DNA of 64,000 nt from Membranipora membranacea (Eukaryota > Bryozoa > Gymnolaemata > Cheilostomatida > Membraniporidae): contig OU612075.1 of the NCBI GenBank assembly GCA_914767715.1, positions 1,424,001 through 1,488,000 of the forward strand, given 5' to 3'. The notes beneath the pieces were generated by a model. It had not been told where the DNA came from, made no database searches, and was given only the letters and a program-made list of their open reading frames with translations. Positions 5,304 through 63,438 of the stretch are shown here, piece after piece (position 1 is the stretch's first letter; every line of letters starts with the position of its first letter). The position numbers and the translations under genes were made by a program.

Positions 5304-5617
5304 AGGCTACCTTACCACTCTGTTTTAGATATCTCAGGGATATAGAAATTACTTGGGAATTGATCCCTCTGAACAGGACAATTACAATGTCAGCTGTGTA
5401 CTGTAAGAATGCTCCCAGCAACAGATTAGGTATTTTGGCCTCATACCAGGTATATTTTTAAATTTTACTTTGCAAATGAATGCTTACTGAGGTCTGAGTA
5501 AGCAGTCATTTGAAAAACGAAATGTTGTGTTACAATACTAATGTATGTCAAAGAATGTGTAACAAAAAATGGATTGAATAATAATAATAACTTACACACA
5601 CTGATTTGAACCAATAG

Positions 5618-6131
5618 CGTCTTGATGAAAGGGCAAAACAGGATTCTCTCACCAGAGAGAAACTAGAGCGCAAACAATCAGCTATATTGCAAATATAAGG
5701 ATGTATGTAAGGATGTATGTAATCTATTGAATTATCTCCAATTTCACCCTAATTCCACCACTAGGATCTCGAGGCTTGGTTCGCTGAAACAAAATGAGGG
5801 CCAATCAAAATCCAGACCAGTCAAGATTCAATTTCACACTGAGGTTATGAAAATAGATTTCCTTCGTAAGTTTAATAGTCTGAATTCGCCACACAAAGAA
5901 GGAATGTTTGCCACGCTGGACCTCACCAAAGACGAACAAGAGAAAGAGTTCATCATGAGGCGTGCAAGAAGGTCACTAGCTGAAAAGTTTCCAGATAATA
6001 AATATAGAGTTCGTAGTGGTGATCTACAACGTCGCACCAGTGATAACCAAACTTGGTGCAATATTGATAATAATGGTGAACCAATAACTACAGCTGCAAA
6101 GAATGCCACCGTTCAAAGTGAATCATCCTAA
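5618..6131 (+). pseudogene. LINE ORF1, 3' fragment
   Basis: The C-terminal part of an ORF1 protein is open from 5727 to 6131 (RPVKIQFH, LTKDEQEKEFIMRRARRSL), the RNA-binding C-terminal pattern of CR1/Jockey ORF1s. Just upstream a coiled-coil-like stretch (DERAKQDSLTREKLERK) is open in another frame from 5618 to about 5695. It ends near a short tandem duplication (GGATGTATGTAA twice). ORF1 is therefore 5'-truncated at the insertion junction and also frameshifted. It precedes ORF2 by 53 bp. Confidence 0.65.
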
Positions 6132-6184
6132 TAACTAATATAAATACATATTTTCTGACTACATAGGTTGGAAGAAGGCAGATA

Positions 6185-8932
6185 ATGAATAACAAGCACT
6201 CAATTAAAATAATGAACTGGAATTGCAATGGTATCAGTGGAAAGAGTCACCAACTGGAAGTTGCCCTAAACCAGCACAAACCTGATATCTTTGCACTAAC
6301 TGAAACCAAATTGATCCCATGTATTACTGATAAAGAAATATGTATAAATTACACTCTCTATAGGTTAGACCGCACAGGTTCTGTAGGACGTGGAGGTGGT
6401 GTGCTAATTGGCGTTCTTGACTCCTCAAACATTGTTGTCACCCAAGTCTTACCTGCAGAAACAGGTGAATTGTTATCAATTGTTGCTAGTGTTGGCGGCT
6501 TTTCATTCGATCTTACGGTATACTACCATAGGCCTTCAGTTAGGAATGTTGATGACTTCATCACATGGTGCAAAAATGAATCATCGTGCAGACAAGTCAT
6601 TGTTGGCGATTTCAACTTACCTGATATAGATTGGACTACATGTAATTTAAAAAAAAGGCAAGACATCCATATGCATGAATCATTTCTGACCTTCATAGAT
6701 TCCACTGACTTACAGCAGCATGTCAAATTCCCAACACATCGGCATGGCAATACTCTCGATCTTGTCCTTTCAAACCTTGACCTCTCCACTCCAACGAGCC
6801 AACCAAGTTGTTCTGACCACGATATAATACTTTTTGATCTTTTCTCAGAAGACCCTGTTTCCCATACAAATGAGAATAATAACACCACCCCATTTTATAT
6901 ATTCAAAAAAGCAAATATCCCAGACATCATGGTAGACTGCTTTGATCTTGAGAAAGATGTATGCCAACTTATTGAAAACAAAGCCCCAGTGAACAGGGTA
7001 TGGGAAACTTTTAAAAATTGTATCCACCGCACCGCTAGTGCAAATATTCCTAGTCGTACTAGGAAAACCAACTCAGGCCCTTGGCTATCGATGGCAACGA
7101 AGAGAGAGATTGCCCGTCGAAAAAGGTGGCATAAAACTAGCATCATCTATAACACCAAAGAAAACAGGGACAAACCAGCTGCTCAATCCAAATTGTGCAA
7201 TACTCTCATGAATAGAGACTACAACTTATTCTTAAATAGACACATTTGTGATAGGCTAGAAAATGGCGATACAAAACCTCTTTTCAAATTTATAGCAAAT
7301 CGCCGTGGTAATAACAATACTATTAAAAAACTTGATGGCTGTAGTGAAAACTCACCAGCAGAGCTTGCCGAATGTTTTGCCTCCTCATTTAGTTCAGTAT
7401 TCACGGTCGATGATGGTAGATGCCCACCAACTATTGACAACATCGCAAAACAGACTACTAAAATTACCATTGAACCAAGAGGGGTACTAAGACAACTTGA
7501 AACCCTAGACAGGACCAAAGGCGCTGGGCCTGATGGCCTCTCCTCTGCACTCTTAAAATTCCTAGCAAATTATATTTATAAATCTTTAGCAATGATATTT
7601 CAATACTCGTTTGATTCGGGTCTGGTTCCAGATGACTGGAGACGGGCTAACGTAATACCTATTCACAAAAAGGATTCCAGAACAGCACCTCTCAATTACC
7701 GCCCAATATCCATGACTTGTATTGCATCTAAGGTATTAGAACATATAATTTGCCATGACATCAACAACTTTTTGGACACCAACCACTTGCTTTCAGACTG
7801 CCAGCACGGCTTCAGAAAAAGGCACGGTTGCGACACTCAACTTTTAACAACAATCTCAGAACTTGTGGACTCATATGATCTAAATGTCCCTACCGACCTT
7901 GCTGTACTTGATTTTTCTAAAGCTTTTGATGTTGTCTCGCACAGGAAGCTAGCTTTAAAGCTCAAGGCGATAGGTGTGCATCCTATAACATGTGACTGGA
8001 TATCAGGCTGGTTGTCCAAACGTACACTCTCTGTGACTGTGAATGGTGCAAAATCCTCACATCACAATGTAACCTCAGGAGTGCCCCAGGGTAGTGTACT
8101 TGGACCTCTTCTTTTCCTCATTTTTATCAATGATATGCCGTCCTGCATTAATAACTCCACCTTAAGACTTTTTGCTGATGACTCTCTGGTATATCATCGA
8201 ATCAAATCACAAGCGGATGAAATCGACTTACAGTCTGATCTAGATAACCTTGCAAAATGGGCCAACACCTGGCAGATGTGCTTTAACGTCTCAAAGTGTG
8301 AATTTATGAGAGTCGAGAGGCAGGCACAGGCCAGCATCAACAATCCTTCCCAAACCTACAACTTAAATGCTACCCAATTATCACACGTCTCTTCTGTAAA
8401 ATACCTAGGTGTGCACATAGATGCACACCTCTCTTTTGACAAGCACATCAGAGAGATTTGCAAGAAAGCCACAAGAACGCTTCATATGCTTATGCGTAAC
8501 TTAAAAAAAGCTAAAACTAAGACTAAAACAGTATCATTTAAAACTATTTGCAGACCAATCTTAGAGTATGCCTCTCATGGTTGGTCTCCTCATTTGGGTA
8601 AGCATATAGATGTCATGGAGGCCATAAACAGAAAAGCCTTTAGGTGGGCATATCAAAAAAGACGTAGTGACCATATCAGTGCCCATATGGCTGAAGTCGG
8701 ATGGCAAACATTGTTTGAAAGAAGGAAGGGTGCTGACTTAAAGTTATATTTTAAAATCATCACCGGTACAGCTGCAGTTAATGAGGAAATGGTCACTGTG
8801 TCACATTCCCACCATCACACAAGGATAGGCGCCATCAAAGGCACTATCAACACTGATGTCAAACGCTATTCTTTCAAACAGCGTGTTTATAAGTATATGA
8901 ACCCAACTTTAAATAGGCTGAATAGTACATAG
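6185..8932 (+). CDS. LINE ORF2: apurinic endonuclease + reverse transcriptase
   Basis: 915 residues, uninterrupted. The N-terminal exonuclease/endonuclease/phosphatase domain shows MNWNCNGISG, LTETKL (about 40), GDFNLPDIDW (about 141) and SDHDI (about 211). The reverse transcriptase shows KGAGPDGLS, LDFSKAFD (about 574), GVPQGSVLGPLLF (about 632) and the catalytic FADD (about 662). A thumb and C-terminal region follow; no RNase H or zinc knuckle is seen. The length is normal for CR1/Jockey ORF2. The protein would nick target DNA and prime reverse transcription of its own RNA. ATG at 6185 is the first in frame and precedes the endonuclease motif. Antisense ORFs over this span are shadows. Confidence 0.92.
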   Translation: MNNKHSIKIMNWNCNGISGKSHQLEVALNQHKPDIFALTETKLIPCITDKEICINYTLYRLDRTGSVGRGGGVLIGVLDSSNIVVTQVLPAETGELLSIVASVGGFSFDLTVYYHRPSVRNVDDFITWCKNESSCRQVIVGDFNLPDIDWTTCNLKKRQDIHMHESFLTFIDSTDLQQHVKFPTHRHGNTLDLVLSNLDLSTPTSQPSCSDHDIILFDLFSEDPVSHTNENNNTTPFYIFKKANIPDIMVDCFDLEKDVCQLIENKAPVNRVWETFKNCIHRTASANIPSRTRKTNSGPWLSMATKREIARRKRWHKTSIIYNTKENRDKPAAQSKLCNTLMNRDYNLFLNRHICDRLENGDTKPLFKFIANRRGNNNTIKKLDGCSENSPAELAECFASSFSSVFTVDDGRCPPTIDNIAKQTTKITIEPRGVLRQLETLDRTKGAGPDGLSSALLKFLANYIYKSLAMIFQYSFDSGLVPDDWRRANVIPIHKKDSRTAPLNYRPISMTCIASKVLEHIICHDINNFLDTNHLLSDCQHGFRKRHGCDTQLLTTISELVDSYDLNVPTDLAVLDFSKAFDVVSHRKLALKLKAIGVHPITCDWISGWLSKRTLSVTVNGAKSSHHNVTSGVPQGSVLGPLLFLIFINDMPSCINNSTLRLFADDSLVYHRIKSQADEIDLQSDLDNLAKWANTWQMCFNVSKCEFMRVERQAQASINNPSQTYNLNATQLSHVSSVKYLGVHIDAHLSFDKHIREICKKATRTLHMLMRNLKKAKTKTKTVSFKTICRPILEYASHGWSPHLGKHIDVMEAINRKAFRWAYQKRRSDHISAHMAEVGWQTLFERRKGADLKLYFKIITGTAAVNEEMVTVSHSHHHTRIGAIKGTINTDVKRYSFKQRVYKYMNPTLNRLNST

Positions 8933-9400
8933 CAAAATGGCAATAAAATGCGACCAATGACAGTGTAGTTTCTTTCTCTTCTCTTTTTTTTTTCTGCTTG
9001 GTCGAACCGGTCTGGAGGTGAAATGAAACCTACAAATATATCTAGGAATCACTGAATCTACTTTGACTTCACTGTACCAGACAGACCTCTCTTTTACACT
9101 TGGTTTATACAAGTGTGCCTCCTTTACTTCTTTCCTTAGATTATGTACCCACTCTGAGGTGATGCTCAGTAGTAACATAAACAGCCCCCCTTTTTCTTTT
9201 TTACTCATAATAACAATTCAATGCTGTTAAAACATGAAACCCCCATTAAAAATGATGACAACTAAATAATGGACTTTCTGATCATTACTGACATATTTCC
9301 AATTAACTGTGCTACAGTCAATCAAGTAAACACTAAATATCGCCAATTAACGGAGCCCAAGCTCAGACGGCGATCAAACCATCGGATGAATCGGATGAAT

Positions 9401-10683
9401 TGAGTAGTTCTTATTGTGAACCTATCTATATAGGCTATCATCACCTAGATAATAGATCAAAATATGCTCAGAAGATACGATAAAACTTTTTAGATACCTT
9501 TGTATTTATACTAAGTGCAAAGTAGTATTACTAGAAGCAAGGAGGACTGTCCTTGCTATAAGTAGTAGATCTGTTTTGTCATATTAATGTATTGAAATGA
9601 TCTGAGTGGACTCACTGTCCTCAGAAAAAAAATATATTATTGGTCAAAATATTGTGTTTTCAACTATGATTGGCTCATATTGAAAAGTATGAAACACACA
9701 AGCACCCACACCAAGCCCTTGTCCATGAACATACCCTGGTTTGACTATACCGCTTTGTACTTGCTTGCTGCCCAATTACTAACAATACTATAACATAGTT
9801 TTACGCTAATTAACTCCATCCTATATTGTCACTAGCTAGTGCGTCAACGGATCCATGTAGCTTGTTGTGCTCATGATCTTCCTTTGGCCGAAACAGCAAT
9901 TTAATCCTGACTCATGTCTCATTATACTGTACAACATAAACATTCAGCTAACTGATGTATACTTCAACTTAAGCTTCTCGATAAAGGAGCAATGAAACTC
10001 CGAGGGAGAATTCTCAGATGAGAGATGAGAGATATTTACTGGATTACGTGATTACGCTAATTTAGCGAACTTTTGCGGTATCTGTTATACTATTTTGAGA
10101 AGGAAATAGAAGTGTTTCTTTGTCAGCCCACTCATCTTTGCCTCATTGGCTTTTATTCACAACCAAGTGAGATGCCTTATAAAACTAACATTGGTGTATT
10201 TTGCATGATGATTAATTGGATCCTTCGGAAGCTTAATCATTCAATATAATATGATTTAGTAGACCACATCTTTTCAAAGTAACTGAGTCTTGGGATAGCT
10301 ATACCACAAGTTGATCACCAGTTAATATTAATAGCACATCACTATAATAGAGGACATTTATTAATTATACATTTATTTGTACAGGATTCTGATGCCGAAA
10401 AGCTTCTGAATTGATATAAATATACATAATGTAAGGTTAGAAAAAATGCAATGAAATAATTTGCACTCTTCGACCCTTACTGTGTGAAACCTTAAATATA
10501 AGTACGAGCAGTCATTTACTGCAACTCAAATAATATAATACAACATTCCCCAACACTTTTATACAATAAATAGTACAGTGTCTCTGTATATGAATGTAAA
10601 ATAAATCATTGACTAAAATCATATTTCTTTCCACCTCAAAGTGGTAGCTAACAAATTTAACAGTGCCGTTACATGAAGCTCTC
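9401..10683. other. Gene-free 3' flank of the Roco-caspase gene
   Basis: No convincing ORF. It is the 3' flank of the minus-strand gene and is shared with 59471-60852. On the minus strand AATAAA occurs at 10377-10372 and 10362-10357, more than 300 bp past the stop, as possible polyadenylation signals. Confidence 0.5.
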
Positions 10684-10889
10684 TCATGGAGCTTGAGCAG
10701 CCGGTGTAGCTGGGGCAGCCGGAGTAGCTGTAGCAGCCAGAGTAGCTAGAGCAGCCGGAGTAGCTGGAGCAGCCGGAGTAGCTGGAGCAGCTGGAGTAGC
10801 TGGCACTCTTCTCCTCTTCAGAATATTCCATCTGATATAAGTGTAAGTTCTAGATTGGGGATTATTCATGTCTTCGTCGGCCATACGAT
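10684..10889 (-). CDS. Terminal exon of the Roco-caspase gene with Ala/Thr/Pro repeat tail
   Basis: The exon enters at phase 1 after ATTACAG. It encodes DRMADEDMNN, a YIRW motif, a basic KRRR patch and then repeats of PATPAA until TGA at 10684. The DNA repeat is an 18-nt minisatellite (GCTACTCCGGCTGCTCCA type). The paralogue at 60853-61067 is 9 nt longer. A second minus frame is also open through the repeat and reads Ser/Tyr/Cys-rich, but the splice phase and stop position favour the Ala/Pro frame. Confidence 0.8.
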
Positions 10890-13800
10890 CTGTAATGTGA
10901 CAATAGCAGTAGCTAACTATGATATCTTAGTCCGGCTCCATTTTATTAAAATTAGAGTGAGTTAATCCATATAACCTATAACAAATATAATATTAATTAA
11001 TCACTGCACTCAAAAAGTCAAAAGTGTACATGTAGAGGGGGTAGGCTAGTTCTTGATGCAAAAAAATTGATCCAGATCTTGAATAAGTTCTACTTGAAAT
11101 AATGAGCCACGAAACCTTTGAATAAATTTTGTTAGATTACCTGACATAAGGTCTGATATCTAACCACAGCAAGCAGCTATTCATCTGGACCCTGACTATC
11201 ATCGGTACCTAAATATTTCAATGATAGGACAGCAGTACACTACTCACCTGGTAACCATTCTAGAGTAGTATCTGTATTACCATCAGGATATCTGGGATCT
11301 GTCAGAGATTGTGGATGTTCTCCAGCTCTTCTCATATTAACTCCAGGTCTGAGGTATAACTTTCTCATATCAGTCAGCGTCGATACAGCCTTTGGCATCT
11401 GAGGTACATTTTCAGTAACTGCTTCTTTTATCTGTGTAATATAGAGTGTGGTGTATTCATTAGTTTTTGTGGGCTCAATTCAATTTACGGAATTGAGGAA
11501 AATTATAAAAGACTGAAGTGATCAACTTTTACTGACCAAACAGGTCTTAAGAAGTGATCAGTCCAGTCTATAATCAGAGAAGGGAGTGAAGAATACATGA
11601 TGGACAGACTTCTAGAGACAACAGTAGATAAAATACGTATTGTTTTTATTTCTGAGTGTGAAGGTATTTTATTGTGTCTCTCAGCATGAGTCAGAGAGCA
11701 AGGAGGATTGTGGGCAGTAACAGGTAACAGTACAAAATTAATAGTATGAGTTATCCTCTTATGAAAGTGAGTACACAACTCCAGAATGATCCTACAAAAC
11801 TACAATATATTCAACAGGTATAGCAAAGGAACTGACAGACAACCTGTAATATTTATGTAGATTTAGGCATTCCTCATGTTCTATTTGTAGCCTTGTTAAG
11901 ATGCAACAAAAGATGGCCGCGTGACAAGGCTATTATACATTTGTTTCGTTATTACAAATAAGGCCAGTCTGTCTGAAACAAATTTATACATATCAAATCC
12001 GACTCCAAGCTAACAATCTAAGTAAAAGCACACTAGACATTAGTATTTTATTACACTTGCCACTCTGCCAACCTTCAGTATCAGTATTTTAAATGACATG
12101 CAATTATTGTGCACCTAATATAATAATATGCTTACCATTTCGGCCAAGGTGGCGACATCATATTTTCCAGCAAACTTGTAGAATGTTACGACAAGAGCTC
12201 TGATGAAAGGTGATCCTGTAGCAGCTGATCTCAGGGAAGCAAAAGCTGGAAAAAAGAGGACTGAGATAAACGGCAAGCTATTGTTATGGAAGCTTTTGTT
12301 TGTAACTTAAAGTCTGACTTAAAGGTATGGGGACACTATCTCTTGTGGATTGTCTTAAACTAAAAAACATATAGGATGAGCGAGACCAAAAAGATTATTC
12401 AAGATTGTTAATTTCATTATCAGCGCCTTACAAGTCTCAAGTTTTCAGCTAGAGTGCTATGTTGCTACTAATAGGCTTATCAAAGATTCAGACTTAAATC
12501 AGCTATGGTTGGTCAGTCGCTCTAAAACAAGTCATTCGTAGGATATTTTACGTAAATCGCTCGGAATGTTACAGGTCACAGTTTTTTTTACACTTACTAT
12601 CAAAGCTAGATTGCATGATGAGTAAATCGGCTATGGATATCTTTTTGTTGAGACTGTCTAACTGGAATAACTCATCTGTGACCTCACTTCCTCTCCGGCG
12701 CACTTCTACTATTCTAGGTTCTGATGTTGTGATTGGTTGAGGTGCTGCTGCATTCTCTGAACTCGGCAGAGATTGATTTGCGGAATCTAACAGCATCTCT
12801 CTGCGCCCTGAAATGACAAACAAATTAAATATTATAACATCCCTACACAAATAAATATACTATAACTTAATACTTATTACAATTCACAACACAGACGAAA
12901 ATGTGAAGGGACAGGAGTCGTCTGTTCAATCTGAGTGGCTTGATACTGAATTGTTGGGTTATGTGCAGCGAAATCTCCTGGAAAAGATATCTAAATCATG
13001 TACGCACCTCCAGCACAGGCTTGTATTATAATGAGCTTTGGTTTTCCCTGCATGGCTGGGAAGTTACGAGGTGACAACAGGTTGTATATGTCTGTCAGTT
13101 TTACAAGTTTACCATCAACACCTGCTACACAGTTCTCAGCACCATGACTTGTGATCACCAGTACAAACACTCCAAGGTTCTTATATACAGATTCTCCTGT
13201 TTCATCCACTAGCTGGGTTTCCTTGTGGATAGCTTCTACAATCCCCTGTAATGATTTTTATAGACTAAGACATTATGTTCAGCATAACGCTAATATCCAA
13301 AAGTAATATGGTGTCTGTAAGCTCTCAGAGTACAAAAGCAGCTTCATTTGACTTTTAAATTAGTCTGCGTCCCCCTCAGACTCTTAACCCTGTGCGCCCC
13401 CTCACTCATATAATATAAGGGATTACACATTTTAGCCATTTTTAGTATGTGAAGATCAGTAATGAGAAACTCTGTCAACTTTTGAGAGTAGATCTACTCT
13501 TTTTCCAATTCTAATTTCTACATTTCTGATTTTCTCATAAAGCATGGTAATCTACACTTTCTTTTATTTTGAACTCATGCCTACGTTTTTGTAATCACTA
13601 TCCCAATTCAGTACCTTTACACAATCATGCTTCATGCTTATTTGGCTCATGCGCTCCTCCCGGACCCTCCCCACACACTATGGGCCTGCGGCCGTCAATA
13701 GCCACTAAGCTATCTTGATCCCCGTAAAATCAACATTTTTTTCAACAGAGATAGTTTGCAACTTTGACACTTTATCAACATTGCTTTGTACTATGCTACA

Positions 13801-16800
13801 AATGAGTTGCATTTTGCCATCGATATGATTGAATTGATATTTACCTTTGCTGTGTAGTTCTGATGACCACCTGCAACAACAAACCCGAGCTTCACCATAA
13901 GAGCTCTCATATTTCTGTAGTCATGTTCTGAACCATTCCTGTATGAGCCGTCAGGTAGCTTGTACTCATTAGATATTAGGAGTGCTCTCCCTCGTGTCTC
14001 AGTCATTGTATACTGGAAGAAAAGGGCAACTATATAAGTATCAACAATATCAGTATTATAGTTATATCTGATATCATATTATTGGGGCTGTGATATGTCA
14101 GCTGTAGTCATCAATTTCATCTACATCATTTTTATGATGACAAAGTAAAACAAATTAACAGAAGATAGTGTAACTCATAGAAAGGAATGTCTGCATGTAA
14201 TTTTCCGCATTTGAGAGGATCAAAATTAACTTTCTAAGTTCAAAAAAATTATAATTATAATGTTTTCATAAGAAAAAGACATAAAGATATACAGCTGGAG
14301 TCAGTGTAACCTGATTGGCTGAGAGTCCGACAGTATTTATCCGAGGGCCCTGAATTATAAAAGCTGGTTTCTCTCTCATCTCCTTCATTATCTCCTCAAT
14401 CATTGCTCTGTCTACGGCTGCAGCTTCTAGAAAAGAGAAAAAAAACAGGTCACTTAGTGATCTTTTTAATCAGATAGAGAAAATTAAGTGAATAACAAGC
14501 TTCTCCATTCCCAGAATATCTAACACCTCACATGTCACCTGACACCATCATCACAAAGACTGTTTAAAAGCTTTAACCTACCATTAGGTACTGCTGGTAC
14601 AGCTGGAAGACGGATCAGGTAGTCTTTGATTTGACTCTTCTCGGCAGCTGTCAACTCAAAACCTGTCAAATGGGAGGAATTTATAATTATACAATGGCTC
14701 AGAGCATGACATGTATACAGTAGATCCGGTAATTTGTCAATAATTCAATACTATTCATAAAGGTTACTCACACGGATATCTGAGTGGTGAGGGCACTGTG
14801 GGAGGTCCTCCCTCAGAGCTGTCGTTACCACATGGTACTGGATCGATTCCTGTGAAGTTATCCAACCGCTGGCTGAAGGGCTGGTCTGTCTCAGGATCCT
14901 CTGGTGGTCTGTACCAGTCAGGATCTCTCAACACGTCAGGTTCTAACTCTTCAGAGCGGAGGCAGTGAGCGCAGTAGAATGTACACACAGGATGAGCAGC
15001 TACCCACACCGATTTCAATTTGTTGAGAATTGTTTCTAATACTTCAAAGACTCTCTTCCAGGCTGCATCAAGCTGTTCTACTGGTGTGTCAGTGTAGAGT
15101 AAGATCTCATGCCTGATGTGATTGTGAAGGAGAGTTGTTACGTTCTGACCATGAGTAACAGATGATCCATTCTTTGCAGCTTTGATCTGATAACGATGAT
15201 CAGTGAAAAGGTTCAAAAAGGAAACTACAAGCAGGTGGTAGACGTAAGATGGTGGAGGTAAACTGTCAAACCTCACAGCCATTTTTATTCTCAAAAGACT
15301 GGCAGAAGGAGAACGGAGCACGATGAGATCTGGTGAGAGGTAGGGGATGATGTACTCCTTTCCATGATTTCTCTGGATGGGTCCACAAAGAAGATAGAAA
15401 GTTTTCAGAAGACAGATGGCCCTGTCTTCAGGAACAGACAGACTCTCAAATAGACCTGTAAGCAGACGCTCGTCAAGGACACCACAACCCTTGAAGGTAT
15501 CAACAAGCTCGCTGTACTTCTCGGCAGTAACTCTACGCCTATCGAAGTAGAAGGGCCTGAAAGTAGCCACTCTTTTGTCCCACATTTCACCACGACGGTG
15601 ATCAAACAGCGTAAGTATCACCTTTGTGATTTCGGAGATATTGTGGAAGACAACATCGCTCAGCATACTTTCGTTCTCAAACCACATCAACCTGCCTTCA
15701 TTATGCATATATCTGATTACAATCAGAGGGCCTTGTGTGGGAAAAGATTTCAATATATCCTCAACTCGAATGAAGGGCTCAAGCTGGTCATCGATAAAAC
15801 GTGCTATTTTCTCCCAAATAAAGGGAATTTTGGTCGAGTGCCTGTTACATCTCAGAATCAATGCGTCGAGTAGAGAAAGGATATTGTCCACCTCATCCAA
15901 ATTTTTGCCAAATTCAAATATGTCCTGCAGACTGAATATCTTCACACCTCTTGCTGAGAAGTGATCAATCGTTGTTATCATCTTTCTATCCTGTAACTTT
16001 TCCTTCCTTTGTTTTTCCTGCAGGATGACTGCCTCTTCTGCAAGCATCTCATTCCGAAGTTTCTCAACAGCATCAAGCAGCTCAGCTCTCCTTTCATCAA
16101 AGAGTTCAGGAGACAGTTTGTCTTTATGAGTTAGGACGAGAAATGGAGGACCCAACTTGGGACAGGGCAGGTACAAATGCGCGAGATATTCAACACACAG
16201 CTGTTTAGTGGCCTCTTCAATGTTCTCTGACCTGACTAGCTGATCAAACTGCTCCATGTTTATAACCACAATTGGGATATAATTTGGCCTTATAAGCATC
16301 TGGTATGATATGCGATAAACTTGGTCACCACCAAAGTCAAACATTCTCAGCATATTCTCACCCATGGATACCTCATTGACTTCAAACACTCTTGTAGTCT
16401 CATCGTCCTCAGCAGACTCATCTCTATGTGTGAGCTCTCGTGTCCGACTCTTCAGACTTCTTATCAGACTAGTTTTTCCTGCCATTCTGTTCCCGATGAC
16501 TGCTGCAGAAATGATCGGTCGCTTGACACCAGATTTCTCAGCTAGATCTGTGTAGTATTTCCTGATTGCAGCTAATCCTTGATCACAGACTGCATATGGA
16601 GGAGATCTGAGATTAAAGCATTCACCACAGTCCAGCTTTATCAGGTTTGGTAAGTCTATCACTGCTGGATGAAGCTCCTCTAGAGATCTTATGTAAGTCA
16701 GTTTCAGATGTGTGAGAGACTTCAGTCTGGTCACAACAGCAGGCAGAGACCTGAAGACGTTGTGTCTGAGATCTAACTTCTCTAGCCGGGTCAGACTATC

Positions 16801-19800
16801 CAGCCTATAAGAATAAGAATAGATGAAATGAAGGTGATGTCAATGAAGCAATTAGAGATAAACCAATAATCTGTATAATAATGTAGGTGACACTAATGTG
16901 GGGACTGACAGACTTACACATTTGATGTAAATAACCAATGCTAAAATGTCAGACATAACTACCTATCCATCGGCCATATTTTCTTTCTGCATTTAAACTT
17001 TTTTGATGGTCTACCCTTCAAACTATCCACTAATATATTTCATACGCCATGAGACCTTTGATCAATATCTTTGTAGGGATATCGGGGTGTTTAATTACAA
17101 AAGGTTGCAAATATTTGGTTACTTTTTTGCAGACACAGACTGCCAAATCTGTAAAAACTATGTCAACTGGTGGTGATCGTTTTATATGTTGTAATTTAGA
17201 ATTAGAAGTTTTGATAATATTAAATTCCTTTAAAGATAGTTGGGTGATTTGTATCATAGCAGGATGCGCTTGAATTTCATCATAAGTAACTTTTAGGATA
17301 AAGCTAAAGTGACCTGTCTTAAAAATTAAGTTGAATAGGGTTGTGTTAGGAGTATTTTCCTCAAATTAACAGATGAGACCATGAATATGCAATTTATTAT
17401 TTATGTTATCATTGGAGCAAAGTGCACATTTTTGGCTGATGGCCAGGGAAATTAGGATAGAATCTAAATGCAAAGATATTATATATGCATCTTATGCTCA
17501 ACTACTTAATTGAACCAGAATTTAATTTAATTTAATATGATAACGACTATATCATTTATTATGATAAGTATTATTCAAAGACAAGCCAGCTTTGAATTTA
17601 GTTCACATACTACATAGGTATTAGGTCATGCCTAAAATGATTTTTTGAAAGAAAAACTTTGCATTTTAAGTTCATAATAATCCAAAACAATCCTCCATTT
17701 GAATCAATACACCTGGAACTTTTCTGTAAGAAAAATTCCCCATATCCTCCTACACTGAGCTTCAAGGCGTTTGATGAGGTATTTATATTTTAACATATAT
17801 TTCATATTTCATTTGAATCGTTATAAAAATACAGAACTTCAAAGACCTATTTTTAAAATAATATAGGGCAATTCGTTGGTTATCCTAAAATATGAGGAAA
17901 AACGCGGTAAGCTAAAACTCCAGCAAAAATTGTATTCTGCTCCTTCAATGGTCAACATTAATTTTTGCAGGACTTTGATGTCATCTGATTATCAAGGGAC
18001 ATAACGTCAACAAGCACAACAAGCTGAACTATAGGAAAGTTAACTATTGAAAAATAGGAATCAGAAGTGGTGTAAAGGTGAAGACTTCTAACTTGAATAC
18101 AACACACCTCGCATGCAGTAAAAAGATCCCCTCTGCCTCTTCAATATTCTTTTACTTTACTCATATTTATTTTTGTTATCCCCTGTCTATACAACAGTTC
18201 AAACACCCACATCTCTCAGCATATTCAATGTTTGTGACAAAATAAACCATCAAACCAATGAATTACCAGATCTTTGGCGGGCAAGGGTATGGAGAGCGGT
18301 TTGAGTACCATACCAAACTTTATTGTTGACTTCGCTATATATTTTGCATGTTGATGACTGGTTAATTGGTAAAAGAAATGCATCTATTAATTTACTGACT
18401 CCGCCCATGATAGCCTGTCAGTAATATTATGTAAAATCAAGATGTAAAATGTTCAAGTTTCCTGACACATCTTATATTATAATTTCAAACATCAAATTAC
18501 ATTAAAAAATTAGAAACTTCAATTTTACTCAATAAAATCATAATATGTTTGATTGATATTTGTATCAATCACAGGACCAGGTTGAGACTTCATTGGTCAA
18601 CTTTTTTAGGACCAACAAATTTTCCTAATCTAATTTGAATGCCCCTGCAAACCGCTGACAGTGTAGTGAACAATTTGTATCCCTTTCTGTCTGATATGAA
18701 CATCATTATGATCAGAACTGGTCCTATAAGAGCCTCATGAGTCAAAAATTGAAGCTGATCAAATTTGAAGTTTTAAAATTGTTGATAATCTATTGCTCTG
18801 GAACCCGCCTATTTGAAAATTCAATTAGTGGTTTTTTTAGCACAGACCAAGATGAAGCTGCACTGATTTTCTTGTCTCGAATAATTCAGCTAAAATAAAC
18901 TGCTGTCAAATTGTACCAAATTGATACGTCCTTATGTTTTATGACAAATTAATACAAACAGAACTGACACTAGATGACAAGAGAGCTACTTTATTAGTCT
19001 AGTTCTGTTCCATCATCCCCCTCCCAAATTTTACATATATCTTAAGTATGCACAATTGGTGAGCACAAAAATAGGAATGTGGAATAAATAATTTTGGTCA
19101 AGCTGGTGAAAATTGAAGTTTTAAAGTTGTTGATATTTTGACTTTTCTGGAACGCAACTATTTTTTGTCACAGCTACTTTATTAGGCTAGTTATGATCCA
19201 TCATCTTCCCAAATTTTAGCTTTACCAGAATGCAAAATGGAATTTGTGATGACAGAAATAGAAATCGGGAATAAATAAATTTGGTGATGCTGATAGAATG
19301 TGAAGTTTAAAAATTGTGGATAATATATTCTTCTGGAACCCTCCTATCTTTTTATACAGCAGACCACCCACTGAGAAGTTATTATGTCCTATATGCAGCC
19401 CCTCCAGCTGACTAAGCTCAGATAGTCTGTCAAATATGTACAAAATGTTATATGCAATCAAGACGTACAAGATGAAAGATTCCTGATTAAATTATATCCT
19501 ATAATATTAACACGCGTAACAAAATAGCGTTATATCTTTACCAATTTAAATCATATATAAAATGGATACAATTTAAAAATTCAATTAGTGGTTATTTTAG
19601 CACAGACCGAGATGAGGCTACACTGATTTTCTTGTCTCAAATAATTCAGCTAAAATAAACTGCTGTCAAATTGTACCAAATTGATACCTCCTTATGTTTT
19701 ATGATAAATTAATACAAACAGAACTGACACTAGATGAGATTGGACAAGAGAGCTACTTTATTAGTCTAGTTCTGATCCATCATCCCCCCCTCCCAAATTT

Positions 19801-22800
19801 TACATATATCTTAAGTATGCACAATTGGTGAGCACAAAAATAGGAATGTGGAATAAATAATTTTGGTCAAGCTGGTGAAAATTGAAGTTTAAAAGTTGTT
19901 GATATTTTGACTTTTTTGGAACACAACTATTTTTTGCCACAGCTGCTTTATTAGGCTAGCTATGATCCATCATCTTCCCAAATTTTAGCTTTACCAGAAT
20001 GCAAAATGGAATTTGTGATGACAAAAATAGGAATCGGGAATAAATAATTTTGGTGAAGCTGATAGAATGTGAAGTTATAAAATTGTGGATAATATATTCT
20101 TCTGGAACCCTCCTATCTTTTTATACAGCCTCGTGAGTCAAAAATTCAACTTCAGATAATCATGGAGGGAAAAAGCATTCAAGCTTATCTGAAGTTCTTA
20201 TCTAATGAGATACACACACACCAGACTCACCTGTCATCTAGAGATGATAGCAGACATTCAGACAGATCCAGCACTCGGAGGGAGGTAAGACTGTATATAA
20301 CAGGAGGCAGACCACCCACTGAGAAGTTATTATATCCTATACGCAGCTCCTCCAGCTGACTAAGCTCAGATAGTCTGTCAAATATGTACAAAATAATGTT
20401 ATATGTAATCAAGACGTACAAGATGAAAGATCCCTGATTAAATTATATCCTATAATATTAACACGTGTCACAAAATAGCATTATATCTTTACCAATTTAA
20501 ATCATATATAAAATGGATACAACTTGAAAACTCAATTAGTTGTTATTTTAGCACAGACCGAGATGAGGCTACACTGATTTTCTTGTCTCAAATAATTCAG
20601 CTAAAATAAACTGCTGTCAAATTTACCAAATTGATACCTCCTTCTGTTTTATGATAAATTTATACAAACAGGACAGACACTAGATGAGATTAGACAAGAG
20701 AGCTACTTTATTAGTCTAGTTCTGATCCATCATCCCCCCTCCCAAATTTTACATATATCTTAAGTATGCACAATTGGTGAGCACAAAAATAGGAATGTGG
20801 AATAAATAATTTTGGTCAAGCTGGTGAACATTGAAGTTTTAAAGTTGTTGATATTTTGACTTTTCTGGAATGCAACTATTTTTCGTCACATCTACTTTAT
20901 TAGGCTAGTTATGATCCATCATCTTCCCAAATTTTATTTTTACCAGAATGCAAAATGAAATTTATGATGACAAAAATAGGAATTGAGAATAAATAAATTA
21001 GGTGAAGCTGATAGAATGTGAAGTTTTAAAATTGTGGATAATATATTCTTCCGGAACCCTCCTATCCTTTTATACAGCCTCGTGAGTCAAAAATTCAACT
21101 TCAGATAATCATGGAGGGAAAAAGCATTCAAACTTATCTGTAGCTCTTATCTAATGAGATACACACACCAGACTCACCTGTCATCTAGAGATGATAGATT
21201 ACAGTAAGACAGTCTCAGCACTCTGAGGGAGGTAAGACTGGGTATAACAGGAGGCAGACCACCCACTGAGAAGTTATTAACTATTATCCACAGCTCCTCC
21301 AGCTGATTAAGCTCAGACAGTCTGTCAAATATGTACAAAATAATGTTATATGCAATCAATCAGTACAGGATACAAGATTTCAGATATTTCTCATAATGTA
21401 TCATCAAATATCATATTATATTACACAGTTACTCCATCTAACTTAGTCTATCAAATATAATTAGCCAGTAATTGATTTTTCTATGTCCCATTGCTATCAT
21501 AATATACTAATCAAATAATTTGGACATATTATGTCTAAATTATCTATATTTGATTATAAGAATATCATATATCATGTTATCTCTTTTACAGTTAGGTAAT
21601 TTGAAAACAAGACTTTGTTGAAATGATAAACCAGGAAGGCGTGTTATCGTGGATACCAGGCTGGGTTGAGGTGAGATCATTTGACAATTTGTTCCCAGTC
21701 GGGACAAGTTTAATATTTTGCACACAAAACTGGTGCGCCAGTTTAGGTAAAGTTCATGTATTGCCAAATACCCAAAATATTGCATTCACAACTGATGAAT
21801 GAATTAGAAATAATCATAACAATGATTACAATTTCCATCTAATTCTACTCACCCTGTAAGTGATCCAATGGTCTTAATCAGATAGAGATGTGTAAGATGA
21901 GGAGCTATAGACCTCAGACTATCAGGTACCTCACTGTCATATATAAACATGTGAGTAATAGAGTGAGATCCTACTCTACTCTTTATCTCACTGATAGTCT
22001 GAGGCCGGGCAGTAACTCTGATCTCATCAGCCTCACCTCTACGTCTTATATCCATATTACCAAATCCTATTGTTGATACACTCTCTATCTCTGCCTCTCC
22101 GCTGTGTCTGTACCAGACTCTATATTCTATAATATAATAATATTAATCATATATAATCAGTGATGTCATCCTAATAAGGTCATGTTAATGTGTAATCTGG
22201 TATTTATCTGATTATACTGATAATCATCTTGTCCCTTGTGATGTGATATGATTATGGGCTATTAGCATCTTATGATGTATGAGATCAAAACTCCTAACAT
22301 TATATTAAGGTTTTTCTGGACAGCCTGACACTTCCAATCGCTGTGGTGATGGTCATACCAGGACGTTGATAGGTTATAAAATAATTTATTGGCTTCTGTA
22401 TAGAAATAACTAACATACAATTTGACTGTCTGTTTTCTGTACTGAAAATATAATTGCGTGCAAATGACTAAATAATCTTGCGAGATGGGAGCATACCCTA
22501 TTGATTTACAAGCTCAAGATTTGGAATCATCATATCTTGTCGAGAACGAAATGGAAATTTTAATGTCATCTGTCTACTTAGCTCCAAAATGAGATCTGCC
22601 TTTGATTGCCCCAAACCTAGTGAGAGTCCCCTGAGTAAAGTACAGGGGGTCATAATAGTGAAGAGGTTTTTTTTGTCGTTATGAAGCTTGTATGAGCGGG
22701 GGGGGGGGGGGAACTAAGCTGGTATTAGCAAAAAATTTGTGGTTACTTACCCGGTTCCTCATCCCTGTCCTCATCCTCACTCTCAATCTCACTCTTATTC

Positions 22801-22889
22801 TCATCCTCATCAACACCATCACTCTCACTCTTATTTTTTTTCTCACTTTTACTCTTCCTCTTGAAAAACCGTTTCACTGCACCGAGCAT
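10684..22889 (-). CDS. Roco-caspase fusion protein (LRR-Roc-COR-caspase), 13 exons
   Basis: Predicted role: a GTPase-regulated cysteine protease, probably cytosolic, in cell death or innate immunity (inferred from domains). Exons joined by hand, 5' to 3': 22889-22751, 22126-21853, 21321-21178, 20374-20231, 16804-14772, 14662-14582, 14426-14311, 14012-13845, 13245-13008, 12807-12598, 12245-12136, 11431-11248, 10889-10684. All phases agree; the 4047 nt encode about 1348 residues plus stop. Seen in order: basic then acidic N-terminus without signal peptide; LRRs to about residue 310; Roc domain with P-loop GNRMAGKTS (about 338), DFGG (about 390) and THKD (about 459); COR from about 557; caspase p20 with SHG (His about 1067) and QACAG (Cys about 1110); p10 with GSPFIRAL; Ala/Pro repeat tail. 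No kinase domain. The start is the first ATG of the first exon; it follows a TTTCAG, so a 5' UTR intron is possible. A split into two genes is less likely because the frame is continuous from COR into caspase. Confidence 0.85.
11248..14012 (-). CDS. Caspase p20/p10 exons of the Roco-caspase gene
   Basis: Five exons (14012-13845, 13245-13008, 12807-12598, 12245-12136, 11431-11248) encode a full peptidase C14 fold. p20 opens with RGRALLIS and NGSEHDYRNMRAL, the usual caspase alpha1 region. The catalytic histidine lies in VLVITSHG and the cysteine in LIIIQACAG. The linker is about 50 residues with RRRGSEV, a possible processing region (inference). p10 follows with ATGSPFIRAL and ends in QMPKAVSTLTDMRKLYL, which matches the last strand of caspases. 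The common QACRG has become QACAG. Both catalytic residues are present, so the domain may be active. Confidence 0.88.
14772..16804 (-). CDS. Large exon of the Roco-caspase gene: last LRRs, Roc GTPase, COR
   Basis: A single 2033-nt exon enters at phase 2 after TTCTTATAG and leaves at phase 1 before GTGAGT. Its first 80 or so residues continue the LRR pattern (LEKLDLRHNVF, LTHLKL). The Roc domain follows: P-loop GNRMAGKTS, switch-like DFGG and THKD in place of the classic NKxD. A charged, helical stretch (AEEAVILQEKQRKEKLQ) sits between G4 and the end of Roc. COR begins near IPFIWEKIARF and includes a winged-helix-like part (MHNEGRLMWF). The Roc-COR tandem is diagnostic of Roco proteins (LRRK2, MFHAS1 and the Dictyostelium Roco family). 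The antisense ORFs at 15598-15964 and 16321-16555 are shadows. Confidence 0.9.
17030..17280 (-). other. Coding-like stretch inside the large Roco-caspase intron
   Basis: The minus frame reads TQLSLKEFNIIKTSNSKLQ, PPVDIVFTDLAVCVCKKV and LQPFVIKHPDIPTKILI without stop for about 80 codons. It has no splice phase fit with the gene and no recognised domain. A degraded transposon fragment is the likeliest explanation. Confidence 0.25.
19361..19426 (-). pseudogene. Dead third LRR exon in the Roco-caspase intron
   Basis: The 5' half of the same LRR exon is recognisable (LSELSQLEGL, NNFSVGGL) with an intact acceptor. A deletion has joined TATACAGC directly to AGACCACCC and removed the second LRR, the CAG|GTGAGT donor and about 190 bp of flank. 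Without a donor the exon cannot be spliced in. Skipping it keeps the neighbouring exons in frame (phase 2 to phase 2). Confidence 0.75.
20231..21321 (-). CDS. Two tandem 144-nt LRR exons of the Roco-caspase gene
   Basis: Exons 21321-21178 and 20374-20231 are each exactly 144 nt (48 codons) and phase 2 at both ends. Both have TTGACAG acceptors and CAG|GTGAGT donors. Each encodes two LRRs of about 24 residues (LSELxQLEEL, then LTSLRVLxLSxCxLSSLDD). Being phase-symmetric, units can be gained or lost without a frameshift. They sit inside 950-bp tandem repeats that also include intron sequence. Confidence 0.85.
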
Positions 22890-32550: not shown

Positions 32551-33667
32551 GATGATAATGTAATGCCACTTACTCGCATTACGGCCTTCTTGGCTGCTAG
32601 ACAAGGCTCTAAAATAAGACAATCCCAAAGTCAGTCCTGGACTACTTCAGCATACACCGGCTCGATGAAAGATGTTTGTCTCAGGTTTCACTGGCAAGAT
32701 GAACCTATCACATATTACACAGAAAGAAAACAATAAAGGTGTAAAACTAACAGGGAATAGTGAGTGAGGACAGAGTGAAAAGAAGGCAAGGCGAGGCAGG
32801 CTGTAGTTGGATCAGAATAAAAAGCAGGCAACAGAATCCCTCCAGTATAATTAAGTTAAAAGAAACCCAAAACACCAAATGGTTCTCATTATCGCAAGTC
32901 TATCATGATATCTCCGCCTCTATATAATTCATCACTCCGAGTTGTAACATGGCTGAATTATGCATCACGCTATGTAACAGTGTTATCTGTCAGTTTCATA
33001 AAGATAACTATGCCAGGCTGGGGAACTTTGAGTATTCAATGTTCAACCAGCAGAATATTAACAAGTTTTGGCAAGTAACAGTGTTATGTGTCAGGTTCAT
33101 AAGCCAAAATTGCGACACCTTGTTGTCAAGGAAAAAACCATCCCAGGGATCTTTAAATATTCAATGTGCATTCAGCGTAAACAAGTTTTGGCGAGCTTTA
33201 GTAATAATTAATCACTATTCTATAATACTGATGTCAAAGCAATCACAACAATGTAAGCCTGTTGTTTTGGACTCTCCCTTTGCACAACACTGCTCTAATT
33301 TACATGGCCTGTCCAATCTACTCAGCATTGTATATTTATGAGCATTATGGCAGGGTAGCTAGAGTTGTCTCCAGTACATCGATAAGTGTGTCACCAAACT
33401 TGGAACTCGACCGCATGAATCGTGAAGCATAACGTTGATGGGATAATTTTAAATTGGAGTGATATAGTGCGCTAATTAACTAGCTGCTGTTCACTACCCA
33501 GCCTCCTAATCTATCATATTGAAAAGAAAACGCCTTGTTTAGATATTGACAAGTGATAGATTTCCGATGTCAATGAGTCAATAAAATATAAAGGGATATT
33601 AACTTTAGACCTACAGATGAATAAAGATACAAGCTCTGATCCCAGGTTATCAGCTATTCACTTCGTA

Positions 33668-45811: not shown

Positions 45812-46312
45812 TTGAAAATCCTCATCTACAAGACTGCTATACGGCCAGCTCTGACATATGGGAATGAGACCTGACCCGTAACAGGAACCCTTATAGACAG
45901 GGTTAGCTCTTGTGAAATGCGAATGCCATGGTACTGCATGGGGATAAGCTTAGAGGAACATCGAAGGAATGAACAGATAACAGCCGAAACAAATATAATG
46001 CCAATCAGGAATGTCATGAGGAAAAAGAGGCTAGAATGGTATGGTCATGTTTGTCGACGTGAGAGTAATGAAGATATCAGGAGAGTGTGCGAGATGAGGG
46101 TAGAGGGAAGCAGAGGGCGTGGACGGCCAAAACAGCGCTGGAGTGACACAATCAATGCCGACCTTCGCTGGCTAGATCTAGAACGAGGTGATACAAGTGA
46201 CCGAATAAGGTGGAGAAGTTTGGTGGAAATAGGAGTCAAAAACCTGCCACCCGATCAGGACATGGCGGTGAAAGGTGAACAATTGGTTCCATGTAAATCT
46301 TACCGTTATTAA
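45812..46312 (+). pseudogene. RTE-like LINE fragment, C-terminal end of the polyprotein
   Basis: The frame reads IYKTAIRPALTYGNET, then TGA at 45872 where TGG (Trp) is usual, then EEHRRNEQI, KRLEWYGHVCRR, GRGRPKQRWSD and DRIRWRSLVE up to a stop at 46310. This is the C-terminal signature found after the RT domain in RTE and related non-LTR elements. The catalytic RT is absent. The fragment lies between two diverged repeat units (ending about 45700 and starting about 46600). Confidence 0.8.
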
Positions 46313-60852: not shown

Positions 60853-63438
60853 TCATGGAGCTTGAGCAGCAGGTGTAGCTGGGGCAGCCGGAGTAGCTGT
60901 AGCAGCCGGAGTAGCTAGAGCAGCCGGAGTAGCTGGAGCAGCCGGAGTAGCAGGAGTAGCTGGAGCAGCTGGAGTAGCTGGCACTCTTCTCCTCTTCAGA
61001 ATATTCCATCTGATATAAGTGTAAGTTCTAGATTGGGGATTATTCATGTCTTCGTCGGCCATACGATCTGTAATGTGACAATAGCAGTAGCTAACTATGA
61101 TATTTTAGTCCGGCTCCATTTTATTAAAATTAGAGTGAGTTAATCCATATAACCTATATCAAATGTAATATTAATTAATCACTGCACTCAAAAAGTCAAA
61201 AGTGTACATGTAGAGGGGGTAGGCTAGTTCTTGATGCAAAAAAATTGATCCAGATCTTGAAAAAGTTCTACTTGAAATAATGAGCCACGAAACCTTTGAA
61301 TAAATTTTGTTAGATTACCTGACATAAGGTCTGATATCTAACCACAGCAAGCAGCTATTCATCTGGACCCTGACTATCATCGGTACCTAAATATTTCAAT
61401 GATAGGACAGCAGTACACTACTCACCTGGTAACCATTCTAGAGTAGTATCAGTATTACCATCAGGATATCTGGGATCTGTCAGAGATTGTGGATGTTCTC
61501 CAGCCTTTCTCATATTAACTCCAGGTCTGAGGTATAACTTTCTCATATCAGTCAGCGTCGATACAGTCTTTGGCATCTGAGGTACATTTTCAGTAACTGC
61601 TTCTCTTATCTGTGTAATATAGAGTGTGGTGTATTCATTAGTTTTTGTGGGCTCAATTCAATTTACGGAATTGAGGAAAAATTATAAAAGACTGAAGTGA
61701 TCGACTTTTACTGACCAAACAGGTCTTACGAAGTGATCAGTCCAGTCTATAATCAGAGAAGGGAGTGAAGAATACATGATGGACAGACTTCTAGAGACAA
61801 CAGTAGATAAAATAGATATTGTTTTTATTTCTGAGTGTGAAGGTATTTTATTGTGTCTCTCAGCATGAGTCAGAGAGCAAGGAGGATTGTGGGCAGTAAC
61901 AGGTAACAGTACAAAATTATTAGTATGAGTTATCCTCTTATGAAAATGAGTACACAACTCCAGAATGATCCTACAAAACTACAACATATTCAACAGGTAT
62001 AGCAAAGGAACTGACAGACAACACGTAATATTTATGGAGATTGAGGCATTCCTCATGTTCTATTTGTAGCCTTGTCAAGATGCCACAAAAGATGGCCGCG
62101 TGACAAGGCTATTATACTTATGTTTCGTTATTACAAATAAGGTCAGTTTAAATTTAAAGGCCAGTCTGTCTGAAACAAATTTATACATATCAAATGCGAC
62201 TCCAAGCTTACAATCTAAGTAAAAGCACACTAGACATTAGTATTTTATTACACTTGCCACTCTGCCAACCTTAGCCTTAATATAAATTATCAGTATTTTA
62301 AATGACATGCAATTATTGTGCACCTAATATAATAATATGCTTACCATTTCGGCCAAGGTGGCGACATCATATTTTCCAGCAAACTTGTAGAATGTTACGA
62401 CAAGAGCTCTGATGAAAGGTGATCCTGTAGCAGCTGATCTCAGGGAAGCAAAAGCTGGAAAAAAGAGGACTGAGATAAATGGCAAGCTATTGTTATGGAA
62501 GCTTTTGTTTGTAACTTAAAGTCTGACACTATCTCTTGTGGATTGTCTTAAACTAAAAAACATATAGGATGAGCGAGACCAAAAAGATTATTCAAGATTG
62601 TTAATTTCATTATCAGCGCCTTACAAGTCTCAAGTTTTCAGCTAGAATGCTATGTTGCTACTAATAGGCTTATCAAAGATTCAGACTTAAATCAGCTATG
62701 GTTGGTCAGTCGCTCTAAAACAAGTCATTCGTAGGATATTTTACGTAAATCGCTCGGAATGTTACAGGTCACAGTTTTTTGTACACTTACTATCAAAGCT
62801 AGATTGCATGATGAGTAAATCGGCTATGGATATCTTTTTGTTGAGACTGTCTAACTGGAATAACTCATCTGTGACCTCACTTCCTCTCCGGCGCACTTCT
62901 ACTATTCTAGGTTCTAATGTTGTGATTGGTTGAGGTGCTGCTGCATTCTCTGGACTCGGCAGAGATTGATTTGCGGAATCTAACAGCATCTCTCTGCGCC
63001 CTGAAATGACAAACAAATAAAATATTATAACATCCCTACACAAGTAAATATACTATAACTTAATACTTATTACAATTCACAACACAGGAGAAAATGTGAA
63101 GGGACAGGAGTCGTCTGTTCAATCTGAGTGGCTTGATACTGAATTGTTGGGTTATGTGCAGCGAAATTTCCTGGAAAAGATATCTAAATCATGTACCCAC
63201 CTCCAGCACAGGCTTGTATTATAATGAGCTTTGGTTTTCCCTGCATGGCTGGGAAGTTACGAGGTGACAACAGGTTGTATATGTCTGTCAGTTTTACAAG
63301 TTTACCATCAACACCTGCTACACAGTTCTCAGCACCATGACTTGTGATCACCAGCACGAACACTCCAAGGTTCTTATATACAGATTCTCCGGTTTCACCC
63401 ACTAGCTGGGTTTCCTTGTGGATAGCTTCTACCATCCC
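60853..63438 (-). CDS. Second Roco-caspase gene, 3' part only (runs off the window)
   Basis: Five exons are collinear with the first gene: 63438-63201 (p20 with SHG and QACAG), 63000-62791, 62454-62345 and 61609-61426 (p10), and 61067-60853 (Ala/Pro tail). Lengths and phases equal those of the left copy except for 9 extra nt in the tail. All are open with canonical splice sites. Visible replacements include ILE to MET at the start of the p20 exon, ASP to GLY in LV(D/G)ETGES, ALA to THR in K(A/T)VSTL and ARG to LYS in R(R/K)AGEH. The upstream caspase exon and the Roc-COR part lie beyond 64000, so intactness of the whole gene cannot be judged. Confidence 0.85.

Follow-up and report, generated by a model that had tools for sequence, protein, structure and literature searches.

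A bryozoan gene family that joins leucine-rich repeats, a Roc-COR GTPase and a caspase in a single predicted protein

Animals normally rely on adaptors and NLR-type platforms to bring caspases together, and it is dimerisation that activates initiator caspases. Roco proteins go through a nucleotide-dependent monomer-dimer cycle in which the COR domain is an important dimer contact (PMC6337361, accessible part). In bacteria, proteins composed of leucine-rich repeats (LRRs), an AP-GTPase (Roc) and COR carry at least 24 C-terminal effector domains, one of them a caspase, according to the available sections of Kaur et al. 2021 (PMC8195603). Here we describe a gene of the bryozoan Membranipora membranacea which encodes LRR, Roc, COR and caspase domains in this order. 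It lies in the window, a stretch of 64,000 nucleotides (contig OU612075.1, positions 1,424,001 to 1,488,000). Sequence comparisons confirm that the gene is real and that the fusion is not an artefact; on the same grounds, the genome has at least 66 loci of this kind, and the gene is no single oddity. The original prediction knew of no well-studied protein with this domain order. This holds for animals, insofar as a literature search by titles and abstract starts, which covered few subscription journals, listed no report of an animal LRR-Roc-COR-caspase protein, but not for bacteria, where this order is in print in the part of PMC8195603 that is available.

The gene occupies positions 22889-10684 of the minus strand, the start and stop codons being the exact ends of this interval. 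As had been predicted, its 13 exons join in phase into one continuous frame without internal stop (4,047 nucleotides, 1,348 amino acids), and 12 of 12 introns are GT-AG. The protein consists of an N-terminal region (conserved at residues 47-137), LRRs (138-306), Roc (307-500), COR (501-865), a linker (866-977), the caspase p20/p10 (978-1255) and a Pro/Ala/Thr tail, with borders set from Pfam and from the alignment with a Watersipora protein.

All exons are on the minus strand. Exon 1 (22751..22889) holds the start codon and residues 1-46, which are basic, then acidic; exon 2 (21853..22126) encodes the conserved N-terminal region RVWYRHxGEAE... (residues 47-137). Exons 3 (21178..21321) and 4 (20231..20374) are phase-2 LRR cassettes of 144 nucleotides each. 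A third, truncated LRR cassette (19360..19425, minus strand) runs into intron-like sequence and was omitted from the model. Exon 5 (14772..16804, residues 234-911) contains the last LRRs, Roc (GNRMAGKTS, DFGG, THKD) and COR, and exons 6 (14582..14662) and 7 (14311..14426) form the COR-caspase linker. The first half of p20, with the Asp-pocket Arg (SYRNG), is in exon 8 (13845..14012) and the second half, with the catalytic His (TSHG) and Cys (QACAG), in exon 9 (13008..13245). Exon 10 (12598..12807) encodes the inter-subunit linker and the start of p10, exon 11 (12136..12245) the p10 segment with the second pocket Arg (SLRSAATGS), exon 12 (11248..11431) the p10 end and a C-terminal extension, and exon 13 (10684..10889) the Pro/Ala/Thr repeat tail and the stop. 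Two AATAAA signals lie about 300 nucleotides 3' of the stop (10357..10377, minus strand).

The hidden Markov model scan of the 13-exon model that the original prediction called for matched Peptidase_C14 (1.2e-28, 230 of 233 positions, 1-230) and LRR_4 (4.9e-16). Roc scored 6.4e-06 (26.8 bits) in the joined model, slightly below the 27-bit cut-off, and 27.9 bits in the exon alone; its G1, G3 and G4 motifs are present. COR-A gave only 0.16 in the joined model. In an alignment of 15 Roc-COR members, eight match COR-A at E<=0.01, and the window's exon is outside those eight. The AlphaFold2 model of the Roc-COR exon (pLDDT, predicted local distance difference test, 86.5; pTM, predicted template modelling score, 0.86) has LRRK2 and the Roco protein of C. 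tepidum (CtRoco) as its best fold matches, both spanning the exon, and this predicted fold places a COR domain directly after Roc. At E<=1, Pfam finds no CARD, DED or death domain in the 1,348-residue model, and no NACHT or NB-ARC.

A search of PDB sequences with the caspase part retrieved CED-3 as the best match (3.5e-18), then caspase-2 and caspase-9. SYRNG, TSHG, QACAG and SLRSAATGS align to the pocket Arg, the catalytic His, the Gln/Cys and the pocket Arg of CED-3, respectively. The Asp (S1) pocket of caspases, which metacaspases are not known to have, is made of Arg, Gln and Arg. The catalytic His is kept in 13 of 13 aligned loci of the genome and the Cys in the 12 of 12 which reach that position. 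Candidate Asp processing sites are found in the p20-p10 linker (MLLD|S, EVTD|E and FQLD|S, all in exon 10), and there are further Asp residues in the COR-caspase linker. Since they occur in both linkers, these Asp residues could also suit a caspase that acts as a regulator, whose limited self-cleavage would free LRR-Roc-COR or a p20/p10 heterodimer and produce a signal without cell death. Non-lethal roles of caspases are established; the catalytic and Asp-pocket residues are nevertheless those of CED-3-type proteases, and we regard this explanation as unlikely.

A protein of another bryozoan, Watersipora subatra, supports the fusion. This protein (P0001, 1,386 amino acids), found with the caspase part as query (8.2e-29), is called 'MFHAS1-like', a name which, as far as it is visible, does not contain the word caspase. 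It is collinear with residues 49-1253 of the model (BLASTP E=0.0, 618 bits, 31.5% identity), the identity over aligned residues being 40% in Roc, 32% in COR, 25% in the linker, 42% in p20 and 42% in p10. In exon 2, 76 of the 91 residues are aligned, with 32 identities. The two proteins are alike in their whole-length collinearity and catalytic residues, and the pocket residues SYRNG, QAC and SLRSAATGS also align; P0001 differs by more LRRs, another linker and the lack of a Pro/Ala tail, since it ends just after p10. Both animals are cheilostome bryozoans, and the fusion has thus probably persisted from the split of the Membranipora and Watersipora lineages onwards. A weak point is that splice junctions 2/3, 6/7, 7/8, 8/9 and 11/12 have only 4-6 identities per 24 alignment columns with the Watersipora protein, and that junction 12/13 has no counterpart in it; their placing relies on the splice sites and phase and on comparison with the second gene copy described below.

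The N-terminus of P0001 reads MGAKSSK (residues 1-7), which we take to resemble an N-myristoylation signal, where the Membranipora model has a basic stretch (residues 1-12); the two proteins could possibly attach to membranes by different means. A protein search with model residues 234-1280 gave no match at E<=1e-5 among 7,992 scored candidates. Twelve metagenome proteins (P0004-P0015) are single-exon open reading frames which end just after COR, and 8 of the 12 have C/S and then E/K after the last conserved Pro. Such ends would fit a conserved phase-1 splice donor (GTGAG/GTAAG) that is read through.

The second copy of the gene is 50 kb away and complete: its 13 exons share the splice phases of the first copy, its introns are GT-AG and its frame is open over 1,352 amino acids. 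Exons 9-13 are in the window (60853..63438, minus strand), including a counterpart of exon 13, and exons 1-8 lie beyond its end, up to window coordinate 71563. Exon 1 measures 145 nucleotides in this copy, which also has exon 7.

The locus could alternatively consist of two neighbouring genes, a Roco gene ending after COR and a caspase gene with its own promoter and a start in exon 8. A read-through stop does lie just inside intron 5 (the open reading frame 14764-16839 ends in RYPCE), but the Watersipora protein passes through all the domains as a single unbroken chain, with identity continuing from exon 5 into exon 6 (10 of the 24 alignment columns at their junction), an indirect indication that transcripts do not end after COR. 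The ATG of exon 8, which sits right at the caspase domain, is only 6 nucleotides after the splice acceptor; the residues ahead of it are conserved as coding sequence, with a Tyr at the second codon before it in all 11 of the 11 aligned rows covering that position, and at locus L022 the Met itself is replaced by Leu, all of which speaks against the separate caspase start envisaged in the original prediction. AATAAA occurs in caspase-part introns (13568, 12052, 11673, 11650 and 10947) and once in exon 5 (15289), whereas a scan from exon 5 to exon 8 for AATAAA and ATTAAA shows only one ATTAAA, at 14470. Moreover, linker exons 6 and 7 keep their length and phase in the two complete genes, and the order and strand are identical at every listed Roc-COR/caspase pair. 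We thus consider two separate genes very improbable.

Chance is excluded as the origin of the fused frame because of the collinear Watersipora protein, the second complete 13-exon gene and the genome-wide pairing of Roc-COR and caspase exons. An assembly join was ruled out, as an independent genome, that of Watersipora, has the same fusion. A pseudogene was also rejected: the second copy is open across 13 exons, 65 of the 66 listed Roc-COR exons are stop-free (one of the 66 is partial), and so are 150 of the 150 listed exon-9-like exons.

The assembly measures 339.3 Mb, and the window is on the contig called C11. The Roc-COR search used the window's own exon as query, and the best 66 of 259 candidates were scored; the caspase searches covered the best 140 of 515 candidates for PF00656 and the best 150 of 204 exon-9-like ones, and the counts are lower bounds. 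The genome contains at least 66 Roc-COR exons, at least 145 PF00656 matches and at least 150 exon-9-like active-site exons (exons, not genes). Judging from these matches, the caspase set is very large for one animal. A caspase match is found on the same strand within 8 kb downstream of 57 of the 66 listed Roc-COR exons, and within 13 kb of 58; upstream or on the opposite strand the number is zero of 66. The first pairing left 24 Roc-COR loci without a caspase match, and all ten of those that were fetched have caspase sequence on the same strand. In three of the ten the caspase belongs to a diverged subtype (per-exon PF00656 values from 0.037 to 6.1e-06); these three are among the nine loci that the later pairing left unmatched. 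The caspase is therefore verified at 60 of the 66 listed loci, 57 by pairing and 3 by reading. Conversely, 11 of 20 caspase regions, hand-picked from the PF00656 list and not random, are preceded on their own strand by a full Roc-COR exon. Together with six loci outside the listed 66 (L017, L018, L020, L027, L028 and L029) that combine Roc-COR with a caspase, this makes at least 66 loci with both parts, spread over contigs C1, C2, C3, C5, C8, C9, C10 and C11.

The distances between Roc-COR sequences correlate with those between caspase sequences (Mantel r 0.50, p 0.0006, 13 sequences, leaving out L028, where the fetched stretch stops inside the caspase). The groups formed by copies 1 and 2 with L026, and by L018, L020 and L027, are common to both trees. 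In the diverged subtype (L039, L041 and L042, on contigs C3 and C5), the first part of p20 is in one long exon; the His motif is SHG in L039 and THG in L041 and L042, and L039 and L042 have IVQACQ.

The two complete copies differ unevenly along their length. Over Roc-COR-caspase (949 codons) the amino acid difference is 1.7%, with a synonymous divergence (dS) of 0.022 and a non-synonymous divergence (dN) of 0.008 (p=0.0045), while over residues 1-306 (305 codons) it reaches 18.7%, with dS 0.143 and dN 0.121 (p=0.47). Introns 2 and 3, between the variable exons, are only 4.2% and 3.4% different. Copies 1 and 2 have two of the 144-nucleotide phase-2 LRR cassettes each, and a third copy, 96% identical in Roc-COR, has four within its fetched 5 kb. 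In the gene array on C11, where the best 150 of 471 candidates were scored, at least 35 cassettes at >=77% identity were found, those listed all within 15 kb upstream of the 11 listed Roc-COR exons, with 1-5 cassettes each. Exons 3 and 4 of copy 1 differ by 13.2%, versus 7.0% in the co-duplicated introns (p=0.018). Among eight cassettes of three genes, six positions of two LRR strands, which we assume to face the ligand from the general LRR pattern and which were chosen after the first cassette pair had been seen, have on average 4.2 residue types, versus 1.4 elsewhere (permutation p 5e-05). The ratio of non-synonymous to synonymous polymorphism (pN/pS) in the same eight cassettes is 3.23 at these positions and 0.70 elsewhere. 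By these comparisons, the LRRs diversify in the way of a recognition protein; exchange of cassettes among paralogues may have a part in this, because dS is raised too.

Such a pattern bears on another possible role of the family, normal tissue turnover instead of non-self recognition. Bryozoan polypides degenerate cyclically, and this degeneration could call for caspases in numbers as large as those counted above (at least 145 PF00656 matches and at least 150 exon-9-like exons). Diversification at ligand-facing LRR positions and 1-5 cassettes per gene are, however, expected of recognition and not of housekeeping death, which makes turnover a quite improbable function.

We favour, with some confidence, an expanded family of receptors, each covalently joined to its caspase, which would work as ligand-driven one-chain switches. 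If expressed as modelled, the protein would be a cytoplasmic receptor whose N-terminal region and LRRs bind the ligand, Roc-COR would bind GTP and serve as a GTP-dependent dimerisation switch, and the C-terminal caspase would be the effector. Ligand binding or a nucleotide change would alter Roc-COR dimers or oligomers and bring two caspase domains together; these would dimerise, be activated by induced proximity, cut themselves at the Asp sites of the p20-p10 linker and then cleave cell proteins, leading to death or signalling. With the caspase placed after COR, the Roco monomer-dimer cycle would either unite two caspase domains or keep them separate. A Roc-COR switch could work in either direction, because the working model in the accessible part of PMC6337361 has GTP-bound Roco proteins as monomers and GDP-bound ones as dimers.

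This working model is one of several points that weigh against the receptor interpretation. The Arg of QACRG is replaced by Ala in the window gene; at the same position the other loci read have Ala or Ser, while L036 and L037 carry Gly and the diverged loci L039 and L042 carry Gln. When copies 1 and 2 are compared, the dN/dS of the caspase part alone is 0.42 and not significant (p=0.17), the COR-caspase linker shows four non-synonymous changes and no synonymous one, and in the 3' halves exons differ by 1.48% and introns by 2.36%, which is not significant either (p=0.13). Intron 1, in a comparison which covered introns 1-3, is 8.2% different. Because dS is also raised in the N-terminal and LRR part (0.143), gene conversion or cassette exchange may explain some of its variability. 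Eight of the 20 sampled caspase regions have no Roc-COR match within 9.9 kb, so that many caspases of the genome are probably not fused, and one more (L025) has only a partial Roc-COR match, in a stretch that holds 2,139 N. Rocos with other tails could have escaped the search, since the query was the exon of a caspase-bearing gene and the best 66 of 259 candidates were scored. Watersipora itself has an LRR-Roc protein without a caspase domain (P0016). Finally, L017 and the Watersipora protein are placed differently in the two trees, the caspase row of L017 comprising only 67 residues.

The one-chain receptor family may have a more specific use. Tandem genes with exchangeable, diversifying LRR cassettes before a near-constant GTPase-caspase, for which no separate adaptor or procaspase would be needed, could form a somatic self/non-self system of a colonial animal, built from Roco proteins as a counterpart to the NLR families and serving allorecognition between colonies or pathogen sensing; we put this forward tentatively, as a doubtful extension. 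Sensor, switch and protease would be one chain, at least 66 loci of one genome carry the switch-protease pair, and the family resembles animal receptors for immunity or for telling self from non-self, with a death enzyme built in. The data suggest a large, fast-changing receptor family in bryozoans. A Roc dimer switch that drives a protease would also allow a simple protease read-out of whether the Roco GTPase cycle gates an enzyme by dimerisation, a question that bears on LRRK2.

Other elements of the window include a LINE-like element (long interspersed nuclear element) with endonuclease and reverse transcriptase domains (5616-9394, plus strand; reverse transcriptase frame 6167-8932). The element was probably inserted after the duplication, because the block which holds it is absent from the matching place (59467) of the duplicate. 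An exon-13-like remnant (53460-53278, minus strand), with D...QxYIRWxI, a Pro-rich tail and a same-phase acceptor (tblastn E only 0.06), is perhaps the trace of a third gene; no caspase exon was found near it. Two nearly identical open frames of 137 amino acids lie 1.9 kb apart on the plus strand (32928-33341 and 34827-35240), and a Pfam scan of the first gave no match. A frame of 145 amino acids (45875-46312, plus strand) has no convincing Pfam match; we take it to resemble the C-terminal end of retroelement polymerases.

Searches for relatives outside animals returned few proteins. A GTDB scan of 36 stretches gave two relatives, both Spirosoma LRR-Roc-COR proteins followed by TIR_2 (3.1e-06 in one; 1e-05 in the other, too weak for the Pfam cut-off); an IMG/VR scan of 600 stretches gave no relative, and a plasmid search gave two records, both cyanobacterial COR proteins without caspase match. 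Alignment of profiles by hhalign with four bacterial Rocos reached a probability of 100, but identity was 12% and the alignment did not extend beyond COR-A. A report on bryozoan caspase or Roco gene families was not among the titles and abstract starts that were listed. The main text of the Flustra genome paper contains neither 'caspase' nor 'immune'; the paper reports many species-specific duplications.

Among animal proteins, MFHAS1/MASL1, a group 1 Roco, shares LRR-Roc-COR with the Membranipora protein, but MFHAS1 consists of LRR and RocCOR only in the part of PMC6337361 at hand, whereas the window protein has a caspase after COR. LRRK1 and LRRK2 share the LRR-Roc-COR core and include the best fold matches; there, COR is followed by a kinase and WD40, as the same portion of PMC6337361 describes, instead of a caspase. 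According to the accessible parts of PMC5094078 and PMC9334734, sea anemones and Aplysia, respectively, also join LRR-Roc-COR to an innate-immunity domain, which is a TIR or death adaptor domain and not a protease. CED-3, caspase-2 and caspase-9 share p20/p10 with the Membranipora model, which is without CARD, DED or death domain by Pfam. The ROCO genes of brown algae, which are proposed immune receptors, have shuffled phase-2 LRR exons of 72 bp in the text available from PMC11378527, compared to 144 bp (2 x 72) here. The bacterial LRR-Roc-COR-effector conflict proteins have the same domain order as the Membranipora family. In these bacterial systems, as far as the available sections of PMC8195603 go, the effector varies among paralogues, whereas in Membranipora the sensor varies and a caspase was found at 10 of 10 Roc-COR loci fetched in search of one; the Membranipora family also differs from them in that its caspase is of animal type and its genes contain introns.

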